Positions 22,272-31,880 of a stretch of DNA of 64,000 nt are shown here, piece after piece. The notes under the pieces are model-generated. The model ran no database searches. It saw only the letters and a program-made list of their open reading frames with translations, and was not told the origin of the DNA. How positions within the stretch are numbered: position 1 is the first letter of the stretch; each line of letters starts with the position of its first letter. This DNA comes from Clostridiales bacterium (GTDB taxonomy: Bacteria; Bacillota; Clostridia; Lachnospirales; WQUN01). Location: the NCBI GenBank assembly GCA_031287685.1, contig JAITSQ010000025.1, positions 62,001 to 126,000 of the forward strand, given 5' to 3'. The translations under genes and the position numbers were made by a program.

Positions 22272-23021
22272 TCAAGTAGTTTCATTGATTAGCCGCCAAG
22301 CCGTTTCCGTCACGAAATCCTCAAAAAAGTTGTCTTTTCCGCTATGTTTAATATGTTTTTTCGCCGACACGCTTAAACCCTCCGGCGTTATGGCGAAGTC
22401 CGCAAACTCAAGCATACTGGCGTCGAGGGAGGAATCCCCCGCGCAGATTACGGGGCGGCTGCCGTAAATTTCTACATATCGCCGCAACGCGTCCCCTTTG
22501 TTCAAAACTTTGGGGATTACATAAACCTTGCCGTATTCGGGCGCGGCGTACAGAGTAAAGCGCGAATCGGTAATTTTTTCCAATACGCCGAGCGTCGCGG
22601 AGATATCGTGAGTTTTGGCGAAAATAAACGCTTCGTCCACAAAGCGCAGGTCGTAGGCGTTTTCATCGGACTCGAGGGCGGCGCGGGCGCGCTCTATTCC
22701 GTCGGCACAGTTTTTAAGGAGACTTTCAGTACGCGCGGCCCACTCCCTGTCGGGCGCGCCGTTTTTCAGCAAAACCGCGCCGTTGCTGACAAGCGCGGCG
22801 CGCGGCGAGACGGGCAGGTTCAGCCGCGAATACTGCTCGGCCGAGCGGGTCGTCACGGGCAGAAAGACGCATTTTTCCGCGACCTCCGCCAAAGTCCGCG
22901 CCGCGCAGGGGGTCATAAACGAAAGCTCCCGCCCCTTGTGGATTTCAACGCAAACATCGCGCGGGGTGAGCTTCATTTTTGAGTGAATCAGGGTTTTGTC
23001 AAGATCGGAGGCGAATAACAT
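22272..23021 (-). CDS. HAD-superfamily phosphatase of the Ter module
   Basis: A 249-residue HAD hydrolase with motif I ASDLDKTLI (nucleophile Asp plus DxDxT), motif II PVTTRS, and motif IV CAGDSSLDASML. The opening and size resemble the HAD phosphatase found in TerD-linked biosynthetic operons. There it is thought to dephosphorylate a nucleotide-like intermediate. It is the last gene of the minus-strand Ter group and lies just after the interrupted zinc-ribbon gene. Confidence 0.82.
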   Translation of the reverse strand: MLFASDLDKTLIHSKMKLTPRDVCVEIHKGRELSFMTPCAARTLAEVAEKCVFLPVTTRSAEQYSRLNLPVSPRAALVSNGAVLLKNGAPDREWAARTESLLKNCADGIERARAALESDENAYDLRFVDEAFIFAKTHDISATLGVLEKITDSRFTLYAAPEYGKVYVIPKVLNKGDALRRYVEIYGSRPVICAGDSSLDASMLEFADFAITPEGLSVSAKKHIKHSGKDNFFEDFVTETAWRLINETT

Positions 23022-23031
23022 AGCAACTTCC

Positions 23032-23779
23032 TTAAATCAGATAATAGTTATATAAAAATGGCTCATTACTTTGGTCATAAAGGTCGCGGCCTTCTATTCT
23101 ATACGCGGGGTGATTTTCGTAATCTACATAAACCGCGCCGCAATGCGGGCAGCAAAGGGATTTTGAGGTATCATAATTTTTATTAGGGTCGTCATTTGGA
23201 GATAGCGAGATTAAAGTGAACGACTTTTCGCAGCAATCGCAGATACAGACAAAATATGTGCCGCTGAGGGTGTAGAAATGGCCTGAGTAATGAAGCCCTC
23301 TGTAGAGCATATTGCGCCCCTTAAAATCCTCTTTTGGAGCGCCGCTTAAATACACGTTTTGAAATCTGAAAAAAGGGCGTTCCTTCATCCAATCGACTTC
23401 GCTTTTGTAAGAAGGCAAATCTTTCCGCTCCGACGTATTTCCGCGCAAGCGAAAAGCGGGAATATTCGCGAACCAAATCGCCAAGTGCAAATACTTATGG
23501 AGTATAGCAAAGGCAGTTTGAATCCGTGAAGCCGAGCGAAGCGCAAAACCAGAGGGCTTTGCGCGTTTTGAGCGAAGGCTGAACGGTTTTCAAACGCCTT
23601 TGCTATATGAGGCTTTTGGGAATTTCATACTCGCGAATCAAAGCCGCGTCTTCAAAAATTTGGAATTTATTATCCTCCGCCGAAATAGGTATACACGCGG
23701 AAAATTCTTTATTTAACGCGATTTTTGCAAGTATTGAGTTAAAGATTATTTTTTGCTCGCGTATCTTAAACGGTTTCAA
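23032..23779 (-). pseudogene. Zinc-ribbon protein gene split by a MITE
   Basis: Two pieces on the minus strand, 23779-23606 (58 codons from a TTG preceded by GGGAG) and about 23504-23032, flank a 101-bp inverted-repeat element. If the element and one TA copy (103 nt) are removed, the two frames join exactly (KSLI followed by LHKYLHLAIWF) to give about 214 residues. The C-terminal part carries a likely zinc ribbon: CICDCC then 27 residues later CCPHCG. Family unknown. The downstream half could still be made from the TTG at 23490. Its place between StiP and HAD genes suggests a Ter-linked role. Confidence 0.7.
23505..23605. mobile_element. 101-bp MITE-like element, TAGCAAAGGC ends
   Basis: Perfect 10-bp terminal repeats TAGCAAAGGC/GCCTTTGCTA extend imperfectly to about 30 bp, flanked by TA on both sides (23503-23504 and 23606-23607). 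TA duplication is typical of IS630/mariner-type transposition. The element brings an in-frame TAG to the upstream half of the zinc-ribbon gene. Confidence 0.75.
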
Positions 23780-23814: not shown

Positions 23815-24867
23815 CTATATATCCGCCAGCGCCTTGATTATCCCGCAGGAGTTGTAGTTGACGAGCGGGTACGGCGAGACGGGCACGCCGCGTTCCGCCG
23901 CGAGCTGGATTATATGCGCCGTCAGCGCGGGGTTGGCGGTCTCCTTGACCAGTACGCGCTCGGGCGCGCGGCGGAGGAGAACCCGAGTGGTTTCGCCGAT
24001 TCCGGGCTTTACGAAGTTTATGTTGGATATTCCGAAACGCGCGGCTATTTGGCGGGTTTCGTCGAAGCCCGATATTTCGGGGGTTTCCTCGCGTTCGGGC
24101 GGCGGGTCGCCATAGTCAAAGCAGGCTTCGACGGCGTTTATAAATTCGTATGTCCTGTCCTCTCCGGCCAGATGGCCGAAAAACGCCGCTCCGTGAAAAT
24201 CCTCCGGCCCGATAATGTCCGGGCGGTAGAGCGTGCGGCTTATGAGCCCGCTTATCGGCGCGTTCAAGCACGACGAGGCAATAAGAAAATCCTCCGCCGA
24301 GCCGCGCAGGCGCGCGAGCCGCGCGGGGTCGGCCAAGACGCATAGCCCCGCGCACACGCCCGGATAGTCCGCGATAGCGGACTCAAGCTCCCGCGAAATC
24401 GCTCCTTTGCCTGTCCAGCCGTCCACGAAGCGGAGGGCCGCCGCGTCGTGGCGGTCGAGTATGTATCGCATAGCGTTTTTGTCGACGCCGCCGCCTCGCA
24501 GGATCGAGAGGGAATAGTGAGGCGGGGAAACCCCGTATCTTCGGGAGAGGTATCGCTTGACCAAAATCCCGGCGCAAACGCCAGCGCGGGCCAGGGATAC
24601 AAGAACGGTTTTTTCGCCCGTATCGGCCCAGATTTTTTGGGCGAGCCGCGCCGCCGCGTCCGCCGTCATTCGCTTGAAATTCTCAAGCGCGTAGGAGTAT
24701 TGCTTAAGGTACGCGGCGGTGGGCGCGTACTCCACCGGCAGAGTCTCGTAATAGGGCGCGCCGCGCTGAATAAGCCGCTCGCGCTCGGCGGCGGGCTGGG
24801 CGGGCACAAGCCCCGTTATGTCTTTAAGAAGCAGGGTTACGTCGTCGGGCAGAAAAGTCGATTTCAT
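23815..24867 (-). CDS. StiP-family protein with PELOTA-like C-terminal domain
   Basis: A 350-residue protein of the Ter biosynthetic module. The N-terminal part (about 20-260), with LVSLARAGVCAGILVKRYL and YSLSILRGGGVDKNAM, matches the phosphoribosyltransferase-like domain that databases call StiP N-terminal. The C-terminal part (about 280-350), with RVLLRRAPERVLVKETANPAL and NYNSCGIIKAL, resembles the PELOTA RNA-binding domain. The 'cysteine protease' label in databases is unproven. Its ATG follows the PRTase stop directly, so the two are tightly coupled. Confidence 0.82.
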   Translation of the reverse strand: MKSTFLPDDVTLLLKDITGLVPAQPAAERERLIQRGAPYYETLPVEYAPTAAYLKQYSYALENFKRMTADAAARLAQKIWADTGEKTVLVSLARAGVCAGILVKRYLSRRYGVSPPHYSLSILRGGGVDKNAMRYILDRHDAAALRFVDGWTGKGAISRELESAIADYPGVCAGLCVLADPARLARLRGSAEDFLIASSCLNAPISGLISRTLYRPDIIGPEDFHGAAFFGHLAGEDRTYEFINAVEACFDYGDPPPEREETPEISGFDETRQIAARFGISNINFVKPGIGETTRVLLRRAPERVLVKETANPALTAHIIQLAAERGVPVSPYPLVNYNSCGIIKALADI

Positions 24868-25980
24868 TTAATCAGTCCATTTGAAAATTTTTATGCGATG
24901 GTTGCCGTACCGCCCCAACGCGCCGTGAAGGTCGCGAAGCCCTTGAGCTTCGCAGGGGGAGTCGGTCAGGATAATAACTTCGTCATATTTGCGAAGATTA
25001 TATATAAAAGTTTCACGTCCGTTTTCGTAGAGGCTTGAAAGGGCGCACGCCTCATTGATGGGGCAGGGGAGCGGCGCGGGCAGAATCGGGCTTCTGGTCG
25101 TGGCCTGGACGGATACGCGGGCAAACCGGCTTTTTACGCCGCTTCCGGCCAGCAAGGCGGGATACATAAATTCCTCCGTGCCGATAATTAGCATATCGCC
25201 TTCGCGGCGCGCGCACATAGGTTTCAGCGTATCCGCCAGCTTTTCGCACGAGGCGCGGTACTCCTCCGCCCAAACGCCGAGATTCGGGTGCGGGCGGCCG
25301 CCTATTTCAATAATTTCGAGGGGATTTTCGTTCGGCTCGAACGGCTCAAAAGGAGTCGGCGGTAAATCCGCGTATTTCCGCGCTTTTTCCGCAAGGTTCG
25401 GGTCTGTGCGCTTATCTAAATAAAAATAAGAAACGGGATAATTTATCGCTGATTTGTTTATGCCGTCAAGCAGGGAAGCGACGGAGACTTTAATTGAATC
25501 CTTGAAAACTTTGCTTTTAAGTAGCGCGGACAAAGAATTGTCTATAGTTTGCCCAGTGGTTACTTCATCTTCAACGAAAATAATGCGGTCGAACTCCCGA
25601 AATTCCTCGCGCGGCAGGGAACAGAACAGGGCCTGAGCCGCGGCGTGGCTGTGTTCCTCTGAAAAACGGGCGATTAAAAATTCTTCGGGAAGCCTCTCCC
25701 GCGTGGTCTGGCAGTAATACGCGCCGGGGAGGCGTTCCGCGACCGCCGCTCCTATGGCTGTGGCGGTCTCCGCGAAGCCGATTACAAAAACGCGCTCGCC
25801 GCTTGAGAGGGATTTTTTAACCAGCTCACCCAGGCGGTGAAAATATTGGAGCGCGTCGTCCGGGTCTGCCGGCAGGTGCTTCGCCTGAAGGCGGTTGACT
25901 ATTAGGTAGGGTCGGCGCGTGTTGCCGCGCCGGGCGGCGAGCGCGAAATTTTCGGATTTATCTATGTCTGAAATTTCCAT
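24868..25980 (-). CDS. Ter-module phosphoribosyltransferase with TRSP domain
   Basis: A 370-residue two-domain protein. The N-terminal domain is an orotate-PRTase-like fold with the PRPP-binding loop IIFVEDEVTTGQTIDN. The C-terminal domain (about 240-370) includes LIIGTEEFMYPALLAG, like the TRSP region that follows such enzymes in Ter operons. Family knowledge: comparative genomics predicts that these enzymes build a nucleoside-like compound; the product is not known. It abuts the StiP and CitE-like genes with no gap. Confidence 0.85.
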   Translation of the reverse strand: MEISDIDKSENFALAARRGNTRRPYLIVNRLQAKHLPADPDDALQYFHRLGELVKKSLSSGERVFVIGFAETATAIGAAVAERLPGAYYCQTTRERLPEEFLIARFSEEHSHAAAQALFCSLPREEFREFDRIIFVEDEVTTGQTIDNSLSALLKSKVFKDSIKVSVASLLDGINKSAINYPVSYFYLDKRTDPNLAEKARKYADLPPTPFEPFEPNENPLEIIEIGGRPHPNLGVWAEEYRASCEKLADTLKPMCARREGDMLIIGTEEFMYPALLAGSGVKSRFARVSVQATTRSPILPAPLPCPINEACALSSLYENGRETFIYNLRKYDEVIILTDSPCEAQGLRDLHGALGRYGNHRIKIFKWTD

Positions 25981-26961
25981 TTATTTCCTCACCCCGTAAA
26001 TCTCCGCCAGGGTCACGATTTTTTCGGCCCAGCGGCGGTGGACTTTAACCTCGTTCATTCGCGCCGAGTGGGCGCTTTTTGCAACTCCGGACGCCCCCGT
26101 CCAGCTAAGGAGGCTTCGCGCGTCGGCGAAATCAGCCGCGCTGACTTTCATACATTCGCGGATTACCGGCACCTGCGACGGGTGTATGGCCGTTTTGCCG
26201 ATGAACCCGTTGAGCGCGTCGCGCTCCAGCTCCCGTATAAGGCCGGTTTTCCAGGCTCCGCCAATTCCGGAGTCGAAATATTCCCAGACGGGCGCGGAGA
26301 CGATATATTCGCCGGAAAAAATATTCAGAATGTCGGCGATTACGCCGTTCACCACGGCGACGTCATAAATCGTCTGAGAGACGTTCCGCCGCACGGCGTA
26401 AAGGTTGCAGAAATCGTTGCCGCCGACGCGGATATTCAGCACTATTTCTTTCATAGCGTCGAGGATTTCTTTTAGTCCGAAAAGCGCCTCGACTCTGTTT
26501 CTGGCGCTAATGACGCTTTTGCTTTCAAGAATGGGCATTAGATAAACCGGTTTGTCTGCCCGCGCGTTTATCTCATAGGCGGCGGTTTTGTAGTCAATAG
26601 CGTTGCGGAGGCTGAATTTTGGCAGCACGAAACCGCTCACGAGCGAAATAAGGCCGCCGAGTTCGTGAAAAATTCTCGACATATGCTGCGGGGAGCGTAT
26701 CCGTACGAAAATAAGCGGCAGGCCGTCTATGGAAATTTTGCCGGCGGAGGCGGCGCTCTCTATTTTTTCAAGCGTGGCCGTCAGTTGATTTTGCGCCTTG
26801 GAGAGGCTCGCGTCGGTAATGGAATCCTCAAGGCAGAACGTAATCGAGTCGGGAAGGATGAATTTTTGGGTAATGAGATTCTCCGCGATTGTTTTATTTA
26901 ACGCGGGGGTGTACATAAGCGCGCCGACGCGGTAGGATAAGAGGGGGGGCGAGTTGTTCAT
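25981..26961 (-). CDS. HpcH/HpaI aldolase / CitE-like lyase of the Ter module
   Basis: A 326-residue TIM-barrel protein from the ATG with AAGGAG six bases upstream; an upstream frame overlapping terD is rejected. Features are GALMYTPALNKTI, CLEDSITDASL, LIFVRIRSP, LMPILESKS with the metal-binding Glu, and KTAIHPSQVPVI. CitE-like enzymes make or break C-C bonds of short acyl compounds. In Ter operons this form is thought to work with the PRTases and the HAD phosphatase. A strong hairpin separates it from terD. Confidence 0.85.
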   Translation of the reverse strand: MNNSPPLLSYRVGALMYTPALNKTIAENLITQKFILPDSITFCLEDSITDASLSKAQNQLTATLEKIESAASAGKISIDGLPLIFVRIRSPQHMSRIFHELGGLISLVSGFVLPKFSLRNAIDYKTAAYEINARADKPVYLMPILESKSVISARNRVEALFGLKEILDAMKEIVLNIRVGGNDFCNLYAVRRNVSQTIYDVAVVNGVIADILNIFSGEYIVSAPVWEYFDSGIGGAWKTGLIRELERDALNGFIGKTAIHPSQVPVIRECMKVSAADFADARSLLSWTGASGVAKSAHSARMNEVKVHRRWAEKIVTLAEIYGVRK

Positions 26962-26988
26962 AGATAGCTCCTTGTGTATAAATATAAC

Positions 26989-27017
26989 AACCGCGGGGAC
27001 TTTTCGTCCCCGCGGTT
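26989..27017 (-). terminator. Hairpin between terD and the biosynthetic genes
   Basis: A perfect 12-bp stem AACCGCGGGGAC/GTCCCCGCGGTT with a 5-nt loop. No long T run follows on the minus strand, so it is more likely an attenuator or RNA-stability element than a full stop. Confidence 0.6.
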
Positions 27018-27029
27018 TATAAGCTGGGT

Positions 27030-27611
27030 TTAAGTCGTGGCCATCCCGAAATTCTTGCACAGCGCCTTAATCCCGCCCTCGAAGCCGTTGCCGACGGCGT
27101 TGAACTTCCACTCGCCGGCGTTGCGGTAAAGCTCGCCCACTATAACGGCGGTCTGGGTTGAGAAATCTTCGCCAAGGTCATAGCTGATAAGCCCCGCGCC
27201 GGTGGTCTCGTCAAAAATGCGGATAAAAGCGTTTGAAACCTGGCCGAAATTCTGTTTGCGCTCCTCCGCCTGATGGATAGTCACCGCAAAGTCGATTTTT
27301 TCAACGCTCGCGGGAACGAGCGAAAGGTCAACCTTAATCTGCTCGTCGTCGCCGTCACCCGCGCCGGTCAGGTTGTCTCCGGTATGCTCCACCGAGCCGC
27401 TTTCGTGCTTTTTATTGCCGTAAAACACAAAATCCTTCTCGGAGGCCGCCTTGCCCGCGCCGTTCAGCAAAAACACCGACGCGTCCAAGTCGAAGTCAGA
27501 ACCTCCGTCATACTTGTTCGTGTCCCAACCGAGTCCAACCACGATTTTCGCAAGGCCGGGGTTGGTTTTTGTCAGGTCTACTTTCTGTCCTTTTTGCAAG
27601 CTGATAGCCAT
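27030..27611 (-). CDS. TerD-family protein (first paralogue)
   Basis: A 193-residue TerD-family beta-sandwich protein. The calcium-binding segment is intact: [22 protein letters not shown], with acidic residues at the expected places, followed by [13 protein letters not shown]. TerD proteins bind Ca2+ and give resistance to tellurite, phage and other stress by an unclear mechanism. AGGAGG lies before the ATG. It is about 40 nt downstream of the second paralogue. Confidence 0.95.
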
Positions 27612-27625
27612 AGTTAAATCCTCCT

Positions 27626-27649
27626 GTAGTATAGTAGTATAGTAGTATA
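27626..27649. repeat. Three tandem copies of GTAGTATA
   Basis: An exact 8-bp tandem repeat lies between the second and first terD genes, just upstream of the ribosome site. It could slip in length. Confidence 0.8.
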
Positions 27650-27652
27650 ATA

Positions 27653-28237
27653 TTAAACGCTCACGCCGTAATCTCTGCAGATGGAGTTCAGACCGCCCTG
27701 ATAGCCGCTGCCGACGGCGTTAAACTTCCACTCGCTGGCGTGGCGGTAAAGCTCGCACACGACGACGGCGGTTTCAACGGAAAAATCCTCCACAAGGTCA
27801 AAACGGAGCAGCTCCGTGCCCTTCATATCGTTCTGGTCGGCGCGTTTGGCCAGCCGCACGTAAGAATTGGACACCTGCCCGAAGTTCTGGCTCCGCGCCG
27901 CCGCGTCGTAAATCGTCACCGTAACGGCGATTTTTTCAACGTCGGCGGGCACTTTTGAGAAATCAACCAGAAGCGTTTCGTCGTCGCCGTCGCCCGCGCC
28001 GGTCAGGTTGTCTCCGGTATGGATAACCGCGTCGTTTCGGCTTTTAAGGTTATTATAGAAAATAAAATCCGCGTCCCCGGAGACTTTGCCGGAGGCGTTC
28101 AGCAGAAACGCCGACACGTCCAAGTCGAAATCCGCGCCGCCGTCATATTTATTCGTGTCCCACCCAAGGCCGACAAGAGCCAGGGTCATTGTTTTGTCGA
28201 GCGTGACGCGCTGCCCTTTTGATAAATTAACTCCCAT
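27653..28237 (-). CDS. TerD-family protein (second paralogue)
   Basis: A 194-residue TerD protein from the ATG preceded by GGGAGG. The calcium segment is [20 protein letters not shown] and the second acidic loop [13 protein letters not shown]. Sequence is close to the first paralogue, so they probably arose by duplication. A few extra residues ([12 protein letters not shown]) extend one loop. Confidence 0.95.
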
Positions 28238-28284
28238 TTGAGTACCTCCCATAATATATTGCGCTTTCGATATTTATTATACAT

Positions 28285-28890
28285 CTACATATATCTTTGC
28301 GCAAGCTGTGAAATGCCTATATCTTTAGTGCCCTGGCCTATCGCGCTGAATTTCCACTCGCCGTCACGGCGGTAGACCTCTCCGAAAATAAGCGCGGTGC
28401 ACCCGGAATAATTTTCGGTCAGGTTATAGCGGCAAAGCTCCTGGCCCTTATCCGCGTCAACAAGGCGAATGAAGGCGTTTTGAACCCGGCCGAAGTCCTG
28501 CCGGCGCTTGTCCGCCTCGTAAATATTGACGACAAACACGATGCGCTCAAACTTCGGGGGGACGGCGGAGAGGTCAACGACAATCTGCTCGTCGTCGCCG
28601 TCGCCCGCGCCGGTGAGGTTATCCCCCATATGAAGGATGGAGCCGGAGACGTGTTTGAGGTTGCCGAAATACACCACGTCCTCCTTGGCGGCCAGCTTGC
28701 CGGCGGCGTTGCATAAAAAAGCCGAGGCGTCGCAGTCGATAGCCTGGGTCCGGCCGCCCATAAGGCCGCCGAGCAGGCCCCCGCCGGCGGGGGCGGCTTC
28801 GTCCCATCCAAGCCCCGCGATAATACGGCGCAGGGAGGAGTTGCCTTTCGTTAAGTCTACTTTTTGGCCTTTTTGCAGGTTTACGGACAT
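28285..28890 (-). CDS. TerD-family protein with Gly-rich insert (third paralogue)
   Basis: A 201-residue TerD protein. In the loop where the other two have KYDGGxDFDLD, this one has a Gly-rich insert and ends TQAIDCDASAFLC, so some Ca2+ ligands differ. The later loop [13 protein letters not shown] is kept. It may have weaker or different metal binding. It is the first terD in transcription order. Confidence 0.93.
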   Translation of the reverse strand: MSVNLQKGQKVDLTKGNSSLRRIIAGLGWDEAAPAGGGLLGGLMGGRTQAIDCDASAFLCNAAGKLAAKEDVVYFGNLKHVSGSILHMGDNLTGAGDGDDEQIVVDLSAVPPKFERIVFVVNIYEADKRRQDFGRVQNAFIRLVDADKGQELCRYNLTENYSGCTALIFGEVYRRDGEWKFSAIGQGTKDIGISQLAQRYM

Positions 28891-28910
28891 TTTACCACTT
28901 CTTTCGATTT

Positions 28911-28991
28911 GTTATAAAGCCCTCAGTCAGCGGGGCCGCGAATAGCGCGGCGGCTATAAGTAAGCGGGAGTTTTCGTTAGAAGCTCCCGTT
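28911..28991. repeat. Palindromic spacer before terD
   Basis: TTATAAAGCC...GGCTATAA ends (28912-28959) enclose CCGCG/CGCGG, like a short relative of the TATAGC elements. Next to it GCGGGAG...CTCCCG (28963-28989) forms another hairpin. Together they separate the 50-residue gene from the terD genes. Confidence 0.4.
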
Positions 28992-29144
28992 TTAGTTGTT
29001 GCTGGATTGTTTTATTGATTCTAGAATCTCGACCGCCTGCTGCAAAGTTTTGCCTTCAGCGAGGGCTTTGTTGAGCAGGGCTATTGTTTGTTCCCGTTCA
29101 AGCGCCACCGCGTATTTTATCGCAAGTTCGGTTGCTGTGGGCAT
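28992..29144 (-). CDS. Small protein (50 residues) between Ca-ATPase and terD
   Basis: A short frame read by eye with GGAGGCGGGAT before its ATG. The product is one or two amphipathic helices (TELAIKYAVALEREQTIALL, then AEGKTLQQAVEILESIKQ) with no membrane segment. It starts 31 nt after the Ca2+-ATPase stop and is probably translated from the same mRNA. No family is recognised. Confidence 0.6.
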   Translation of the reverse strand: MPTATELAIKYAVALEREQTIALLNKALAEGKTLQQAVEILESIKQSSNN

Positions 29145-29175
29145 ATCCCGCCTCCCTTCATTAAAAGTAATATAT

Positions 29176-31821
29176 TTAACGCCGCTTGCCTTGTGCCGTC
29201 ACCGCCTTTCTTATAAGGTCAACGGGGATAATCAGAGCCGCCGAGCCGAGCGCGACCGCCCATTCAAGCGGGTTCAGCCCGTAACAGCGGAGCACCGCGC
29301 CGCCCAGATAGGTCATTATAATCTGCACAAGGGCAATCAGACCTATAATCCGGAGGAAACCGGGATTTTTGCCGATGTTGTCAAAGAGGTTGAGCCTGTC
29401 CGTCCGCGCGTTGAAAGAGTTGAACACGGCGGCGAATATGAAAAACACGAAATATCCCGTCAGGACGTAGCGCATATCCTCAGCGCCGCCCCGGAAAGCG
29501 GAGTCGAACGTTTTTGAGAACAGAAACAACATACTCATTATAAAGGTAAAGACCGCGCCCGTCAAGATAGCGCTCCACATATATCCGCTGACGATAGGCT
29601 CGTCCCGGCGTTTGGGGGCTTCGTGCATAAAGCGGGGAAGGGCCGGCTCCCCGCCGAAGGCCAGCGCCGCGAGAGTATCCATTACTAAATTTATCCACAG
29701 AATCTGGGTGATTGAAAGCGGGTTCTCCATACCGAGCAGGGGCGACGCGAAAGACACCAGCACCGCCGTCACGTTGATGGTCAGCTGAAAGATTATAAAC
29801 TTCCGTATGCTGTTGAAAATGGTGCGCCCGTAGAGAATCGCCTTGTCTATGGAGTTGAAATTGTCGTCAAGAATCACGATGTCCCCGGCTTCCTTGGCGA
29901 CCTCCGTCCCGCCGCCCATAGCGAAGCCCACGTCCGCTTTTTTAAGCGCGGGGGAGTCGTTCACGCCGTCTCCGGTCATACCCACGACAAGATTTTTATC
30001 CTGGGCGATTTTGACGAGCCGGCTTTTGTCGGAGGGCAGGGCGCGGGAAATAACGCGGATTTTCGGCAGGATTTCGGCAATCTGCTCGTCCGTCATATCC
30101 CGCAGGTCCTCGGAGGTCAGGGCGACGTCCCCGTCGTCGGTAAGAAGGCCCGCTTCCCTGGCGATTGCCGTGGCGGTGTCCTTTCTGTCGCCGGTAATCA
30201 TAACCACCTGCACGCCCGCGCGTTTAACCTCCGCTATGGCGGTTATGGATTCCGGGCGCACCTCGTCCCGTATGCCGACGACGCCGACAAGGGCGCAGCC
30301 GCCGGACGGGAGCCGGCCTTCGGTGATAGGCTCTTTTGAAACGGCGAACGCCAGAACGCGTATGGCGCGTTCGGCCAGCCGGTCTATGACCGCCTCCACG
30401 TCGGCGATTTTTCCGGCAAAGTCCTGAATATTGCCGCTGCCGTCATAATACCCTGTGCAGCGGGAAAGGATTTTTTCCGGCGCGCCTTTAATCAGGGTGC
30501 ATTCATAGTCGCCTTTTACGGAGGCCAAGGAGTATTTATTCTCGCTGTTAAAGGGCACGGAGTCCGCGACGGTTATACTCGCCGGCTTGTCCTTGCCGAC
30601 GATAAAGCCCAAAATGGCGCGTTCCGTGGCGTTGCCGCCGATGGGGCGGGGGTTGCCGCTCTCGTCGGTCGTCAGGAGCGCGGAGGTGTTGTGGCGTATC
30701 GAGAGCGCGAGCAATTTCGCGCAAGCCTCCGGCAGAGCCTCGAAAGAGTTGTATTCCCGCGCTTCCCCGTCCGCGAAAACGACCGCCTCAAGGCGGCCCT
30801 TGGTAATCGTGCCGGTTTTATCGGAAAAAAGAATATTGAGGCTGCCCGCCGTTTCTATCCCGGCGATTTTGCGCACGAGAACGTTGTCTTTAAGCATTTT
30901 TCCCATATTAAGCGCGGAAACTATGGCGATCATAAGCGGAAGCCCCTCGGGAACCGCCATTACGATTATTATGACGGCCAGAATAACGGCGTTGACCGCG
31001 TCCTGCGCAATCTGCCAGCCCGCGTGGTGGTTCATTATGACCTGCACAAACATAAACGCGGCAGCGATAGCCACGCCGCCGATATATCCGAAGCGGCTTA
31101 TGCCCTCCGCCAAGTCGGAGAGCTTGACTTTCAGAGGGGAATCTCTGTCCTCCGTCCGCTGAAGGTCGCCGGCGATTTTGCCGTAAAGGGTGGAGTCCCC
31201 CACGCTGGCGGCTTTCATAACGGCGTTGCCGGAGCATACGATGGCTCCGCGGAATACGTTGTGAAAGTCAAGAAAATCGACAGTTTCGGGGTTTTCATAA
31301 TCCGCGGGGGCGGCCTTTTTCTCCGCTTCTTTGCTTTCGCCGTTCAACACGGACTGGTCAACTTTTATAGAGCCGGAGATTATGGCGCCGTCGGCGGGAA
31401 TTTTATCTCCGGACTGGAGCAGGACCAAATCGTCAGCCACAACGTCGTCAATCGGGATTTCCGTGATTATGCCGTTGCGGTAGACTTTGCACTTTATTCT
31501 GGACGCCTCGTCCTGGAGCTTCTGAAAGGCGTTCTCGTTGCGATATTCGGAAAATGTGGAGACGAACGTGGCTATAAGCACCGCCAGGGCTATGCCGACG
31601 GATTCGTACCAGTGGGTCTTGCCCAAGAAGGCGAAAACCACGTTGATTATAAGCGCCACGCAGAGAATTTTAATCATCGGGTCGCCAAAATTGCCTATGA
31701 GCTTGTCACGGAAACTTTCGGGCTTGACCTCGCTTAAAAGGTTCGAGCCGCGGGAAAGGCGGGACTCGATAACCTCTTTATCGGTAAGCCCTTTAAAAGT
31801 CGAATTTGCTTCGGTATCCAT
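29176..31821 (-). CDS. Calcium-translocating P-type ATPase
   Basis: An 881-residue P2-type ATPase from the ATG with GGAGG five bases upstream. In order: cation N-terminal region, AVPEGLPLMIAI in membrane helix 4 (Ca2+ site), phosphorylation motif SDKTGTITKG, KGAPEKILSRC nucleotide region, MITGDRKDTA, GDGVNDSPALKKADVGFAMG, and a C-terminal set of helices with NLVMDTLAALAFG. It exports Ca2+ from the cytoplasm. Its position just upstream of three Ca2+-binding TerD genes points to shared calcium handling. Confidence 0.95.
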   Translation of the reverse strand: MDTEANSTFKGLTDKEVIESRLSRGSNLLSEVKPESFRDKLIGNFGDPMIKILCVALIINVVFAFLGKTHWYESVGIALAVLIATFVSTFSEYRNENAFQKLQDEASRIKCKVYRNGIITEIPIDDVVADDLVLLQSGDKIPADGAIISGSIKVDQSVLNGESKEAEKKAAPADYENPETVDFLDFHNVFRGAIVCSGNAVMKAASVGDSTLYGKIAGDLQRTEDRDSPLKVKLSDLAEGISRFGYIGGVAIAAAFMFVQVIMNHHAGWQIAQDAVNAVILAVIIIVMAVPEGLPLMIAIVSALNMGKMLKDNVLVRKIAGIETAGSLNILFSDKTGTITKGRLEAVVFADGEAREYNSFEALPEACAKLLALSIRHNTSALLTTDESGNPRPIGGNATERAILGFIVGKDKPASITVADSVPFNSENKYSLASVKGDYECTLIKGAPEKILSRCTGYYDGSGNIQDFAGKIADVEAVIDRLAERAIRVLAFAVSKEPITEGRLPSGGCALVGVVGIRDEVRPESITAIAEVKRAGVQVVMITGDRKDTATAIAREAGLLTDDGDVALTSEDLRDMTDEQIAEILPKIRVISRALPSDKSRLVKIAQDKNLVVGMTGDGVNDSPALKKADVGFAMGGGTEVAKEAGDIVILDDNFNSIDKAILYGRTIFNSIRKFIIFQLTINVTAVLVSFASPLLGMENPLSITQILWINLVMDTLAALAFGGEPALPRFMHEAPKRRDEPIVSGYMWSAILTGAVFTFIMSMLFLFSKTFDSAFRGGAEDMRYVLTGYFVFFIFAAVFNSFNARTDRLNLFDNIGKNPGFLRIIGLIALVQIIMTYLGGAVLRCYGLNPLEWAVALGSAALIIPVDLIRKAVTAQGKRR

Positions 31822-31880
31822 ATAATCCTCCAGTAAATTTATGAAATTTGAATATATAATTTTTTCCGCATTACCCAAAA

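Follow-up and report, generated by a model that had tools for sequence, protein, structure and literature searches.

A 101-bp MITE-like element very probably interrupts an apparently acquired zinc-ribbon gene between stiP and a HAD-family hydrolase gene in a Clostridiales bacterium

Two open frames separated by an inverted repeat lie between stiP and a HAD-family hydrolase gene in a 64,000-nt window (the whole stretch of DNA analyzed) from a Clostridiales bacterium. Are these frames two genes or one gene split by a mobile element, and did the product belong to the surrounding Ter-type operon? The locus very probably held a single 214-codon zinc-ribbon gene, itself probably acquired, that was inactivated when a 101-bp MITE-like element inserted at a TA. 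The event is an ordinary gene-disrupting insertion and did not remove a standard component of the operon. The features are as follows, in window positions.

22272-23021, minus strand: downstream neighbor, HAD-family hydrolase gene, in an operon shared with StiP; found straight after StiP in several relatives.
23032-23502, minus strand: C-terminal half of the split zinc-ribbon gene; 156 codons (23502-23035) plus a stop codon (23034-23032); profile match at E 8.4e-15.
23503-23607, no strand assigned: MITE-like element with its TA copies; TA 23503-23504, element 23505-23605, TA 23606-23607.
23606-23779, minus strand: N-terminal half of the split zinc-ribbon gene; starts at TTG 23779 and runs for 58 codons.
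23815-24867, minus strand: upstream neighbor in the Ter-type operon, encoding a StiP and PELOTA_1 protein (Pfam StiP, E 3.6e-87).
24868-31857, minus strand: remainder of the Ter-type operon, encoding PRTase_2/TRSP, C-C bond lyase, three TerD proteins, and a P-type cation ATPase; syntenic in relative G004.

The C-terminal half carries presumed zinc-binding cysteines (CICDCC ... CPHCG). Used as a query, it matched a hypothetical 263-aa protein encoded on Persicobacter psychrovividus plasmid pPP2 (WP_338398743.1, E 4e-6). A first profile, built from the C-terminal half and the Persicobacter protein, detected the domain four more times (loci L061, L062, L063, and L066; E 3e-18 to 6e-18) within three genomes of the same class, in each case as the C-terminal part of a ~600-aa membrane protein. 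The cysteines of the CxxC and CPxCG motifs are unchanged across all six aligned sequences, and no curated zinc-ribbon family scored above its cut-off. No family in Pfam, NCBIfam, PHROG, or PADLOC names the domain, which was uncharacterized and is now documented. The N-terminal parts of the membrane proteins differ among the four class loci, which suggests a mobile cytoplasmic module. Because these relatives carry the domain on the C-terminus of membrane proteins, our guess is that the zinc-ribbon protein was a cytoplasmic accessory or metal-sensing module. On its plasmid, the Persicobacter homolog is grouped with small hypothetical genes and one encoding a DUF4279 protein (L053 1036-4603), which we take to be possibly an immunity-type or conflict cluster.

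Pairwise searches with the C-terminal half alone, covering 392 genomes from the order and 398 from the phylum, returned only chance-level or Hsp33-tail matches. Two weak matches from the profile search of the order were discarded as chance, and a contig match (L052) was discarded as antisense to a dxs-like gene. Phage tblastn matches (E 0.8) lay on the strand opposite to annotated genes. No protein relatives were found in the viral contigs searched, and a PDB sequence search gave nothing useful.

The neighbors of the split gene (StiP/PELOTA, PRTase_2/TRSP, C-C bond lyase, TerD, and cation ATPase) form a known Ter-type module. Together with the HAD gene they match the Ter-type stress operon, from which the locus differs by the extra zinc-ribbon gene. 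All three genes are on one strand, with gaps of 35 bp to stiP (stop codon at 23815-23817, minus strand) and 10 bp to the HAD gene, so stiP, the split gene, and the HAD gene are probably co-transcribed. This arrangement would suit a Ter component that is genuine, specific to the lineage, and recently lost through the insertion, and the preliminary description had suggested that the lost protein would be a new partner of the Ter module. However, of 14 further StiP loci in the order, G004 among them, none has a homolog beside StiP, where the preliminary description had proposed to look. The closest syntenic relative, G004, has the same operon with HAD 8 bp after StiP and no gene between them, and HAD is the next gene after StiP in 6 of the 14 loci. 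The homologs' own neighborhoods (8 to 14 kb each) contain no Ter genes; recurrent linkage to TerD or StiP across genomes, as expected of a Ter component, was not seen. StiP is carried by 2,567 plasmids, against a single plasmid record, that of Persicobacter, with a detectable zinc-ribbon homolog. At 41.2%, the GC content of the split gene is lower than that of any 640-bp stretch in the window (mean 55.2, SD 4.1), and the gene is foreign in this respect. A Ter role is thus very unlikely, and the claim of a new partner is not supported: operon position alone does not make a gene a partner.

Among the relatives checked, a zinc-ribbon gene inside a Ter-type operon was found in this bacterium alone. 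Because HAD directly follows StiP in the closest syntenic relative and the gene has the lowest GC content in the window, it is probably an orphan acquired horizontally. The Ter-type operon of this lineage would then have taken up an extra gene, lodged between stiP and the HAD gene, and lost it to a mobile repeat. Elsewhere in the operon, the C-C lyase and PRTase genes of G004 are separated by a gene that is ATP-grasp-like in sequence (L075 7526-8494); the corresponding genes in the window (24868-27060) are directly adjacent, with no gene between them.

The inverted repeat occupies 23503-23533 and 23577-23607 and reads TATAGCAAAGGC...GCCTTTGCTATA, which corresponds to TA, 101 bp, and TA. The arms are imperfect inverted repeats of ~31 bp with exact terminal 12 bp, and the TATAG end presumably resembles the ends of Correia elements. 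As RNA, the repeat is predicted to fold into a single extended hairpin (-50.9 kcal/mol, z = -7.9), and none of 200 shuffled sequences was equally stable. No protein longer than 34 aa is encoded inside the element, and an Rfam search of the locus matched no family. The element is therefore short and non-coding with terminal inverted repeats, as bacterial MITEs are.

BLAST against the bacterium's own genome gave 11 element matches. Five copies retain both ends and are dispersed over several contigs, with lengths of 35, 57, 65, 105, and 234 bp, consistent with the multi-copy families formed by MITEs. TA is present at both outer ends in four of the five; in the 65-bp copy, one end carries TG instead. 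Apart from the copy at this locus, the full copies lie outside genes as far as read. The 234-bp copy has exact ends (L003 1501-1734, G000:C14:29687-29920) and is located between scpA-like and scpB-like genes, named from their products, just past the stop codon of the first. Outside this genome, G004, a genome of the same family, holds a copy with 78% identity, and G026 holds a weaker one; none was found in the plasmids and phages searched. This TA-flanked miniature repeat family was undescribed before.

The element would be non-autonomous, moved in trans by a TA-targeting transposase, and its insertion in the zinc-ribbon gene would have duplicated the TA. No IS630-type DDE_3 transposase was matched in the bacterium's own genome, nor were the IS630-type ends that an IS630-derived, RUP-like MITE should share; as this genome is 97% complete, the absence is provisional. 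A transposase whose ends match the element was likewise not identified, and another transposase family may serve the element. A recent insertion is plausible because the terminal 12 bp are exact and both flanks are otherwise open.

Translation of the N-terminal half would start at TTG 23779, which has AAGGGAG ~10 nt upstream. Ribosomes on this half would meet UAG as the first codon after the junction AUA, and the C-terminal half would be left out of frame and without a good start site. Might this half still be expressed by re-initiation, with partial function, so that the locus encodes a truncated zinc-ribbon protein? Its frame is open, its cysteines are intact, and a TTG at 23490 is a possible start. 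Against this, TTG 23490 has the strong hairpin just ahead of it and no evident ribosome-binding site, and the N-terminal part of the domain is kept in all homologs. Re-initiation with a functional product is very unlikely. We infer that the gene worked before the insertion and that the insertion abolished its function.

Whether the two halves were one gene was examined through the reading frame. On the minus strand, the N-terminal half ends ...AGC CTC ATA, followed at once by TAG inside the element. Scripted joining with 103 bp removed, which keeps one TA, gave a stop-free frame of 58 + 156 = 214 codons beginning at TTG 23779. When 0, 1, 3, or 4 bases were kept (105, 104, 102, or 101 bp removed), 6-11 stops appeared. 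The frame is restored only with exactly one TA kept, in agreement with a TA target-site duplication and with the TA pairs of four of the five full copies. The preliminary description had reported that removal of the element with one TA joins the halves in phase through codons CTC ATA CTC, and the joined sequence bears out both points.

The restored frame could still be a coincidence of two independent frames on either side of an intergenic hairpin, such as a terminator-like repeat. The chance of in-phase joining is ~1/3, and the location of the other full copies outside genes would fit such a repeat. Removing the scpA-scpB copy in the same way also yields a 377-codon antisense frame, since stop-free frames are cheap in a GC-rich genome. 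Phase alone is weak evidence for these reasons, and a homology test was needed.

A second profile was built from the five homologs only, without the window sequence, and searched against 1,731 six-frame stop-to-stop pieces of the window. The C-terminal half ranked first (51.6 bits, E 8.4e-15). The N-terminal half ranked second in the right frame and colinear order, with a score that is not significant alone (E 1.6) and a similarity that is weak by itself on shuffling (p 0.02-0.05); its evidence therefore rests on rank, position, and frame. The joined protein scored 59.3 bits (E 3.7e-17), compared with 51.6 for the C-terminal half, and its first domain alignment, which covers profile positions 7-170, crosses the junction as a single domain. 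Its junction loop is 3-4 residues shorter than in the relatives. The Persicobacter and class homologs share the domain and its conserved cysteines with the split gene and differ from it in being unsplit: all are single open reading frames, continuous across the junction position and colinear with both halves, and not pairs of separate genes. Coincidence is highly improbable on this evidence. The earlier proposal of one gene split by insertion at a TA is supported by these junction-spanning homologs and by the dispersed inverted-repeat family.

The split locus also has the outward layout of a translational bypass: AUA, UAG at once, a stable hairpin, and a second AUA from which the frame would resume. 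In phage T4 gene 60, matched codons likewise flank a UAG and a hairpin (PMC5009743). On this reading the mobile element would be tolerated in this bacterium because ribosomes skip over it, but the reading is barely credible because a TAG...CTA element gives this layout automatically at any ATA codon and the other full copies are apparently not in genes.

Disruption of the gene by a miniature element has precedent in known repeats, compared here by description. The repeat unit of pneumococcus (RUP) is a non-coding sequence of ~107 bp with terminal inverted repeats and TA ends, and it inserts at TA, at times within genes, which it inactivates (PMC2229807). The element shares its size, terminal inverted repeats, TA ends, and insertion in a gene. 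It differs in its low copy number and the lack of a DDE_3 match, whereas RUP has 108 copies and IS630-Spn1 is proposed as its mover. Correia/NEMIS elements of Neisseria are ~107-155 bp long and have inverted repeats, 5'-TA-3' ends, a target duplication, and a foldable transcript (PMC2229807). The inverted repeats, TA ends, and foldable RNA of the element are similar; the organism is different, and the copies here span 35 to 234 bp in total. The 57-bp (L005 1501-1557), 65-bp (L007 1501-1565), and 35-bp (L027 1501-1535) copies keep their ends and have nearly no interior, so the internal length of the repeat family varies greatly.
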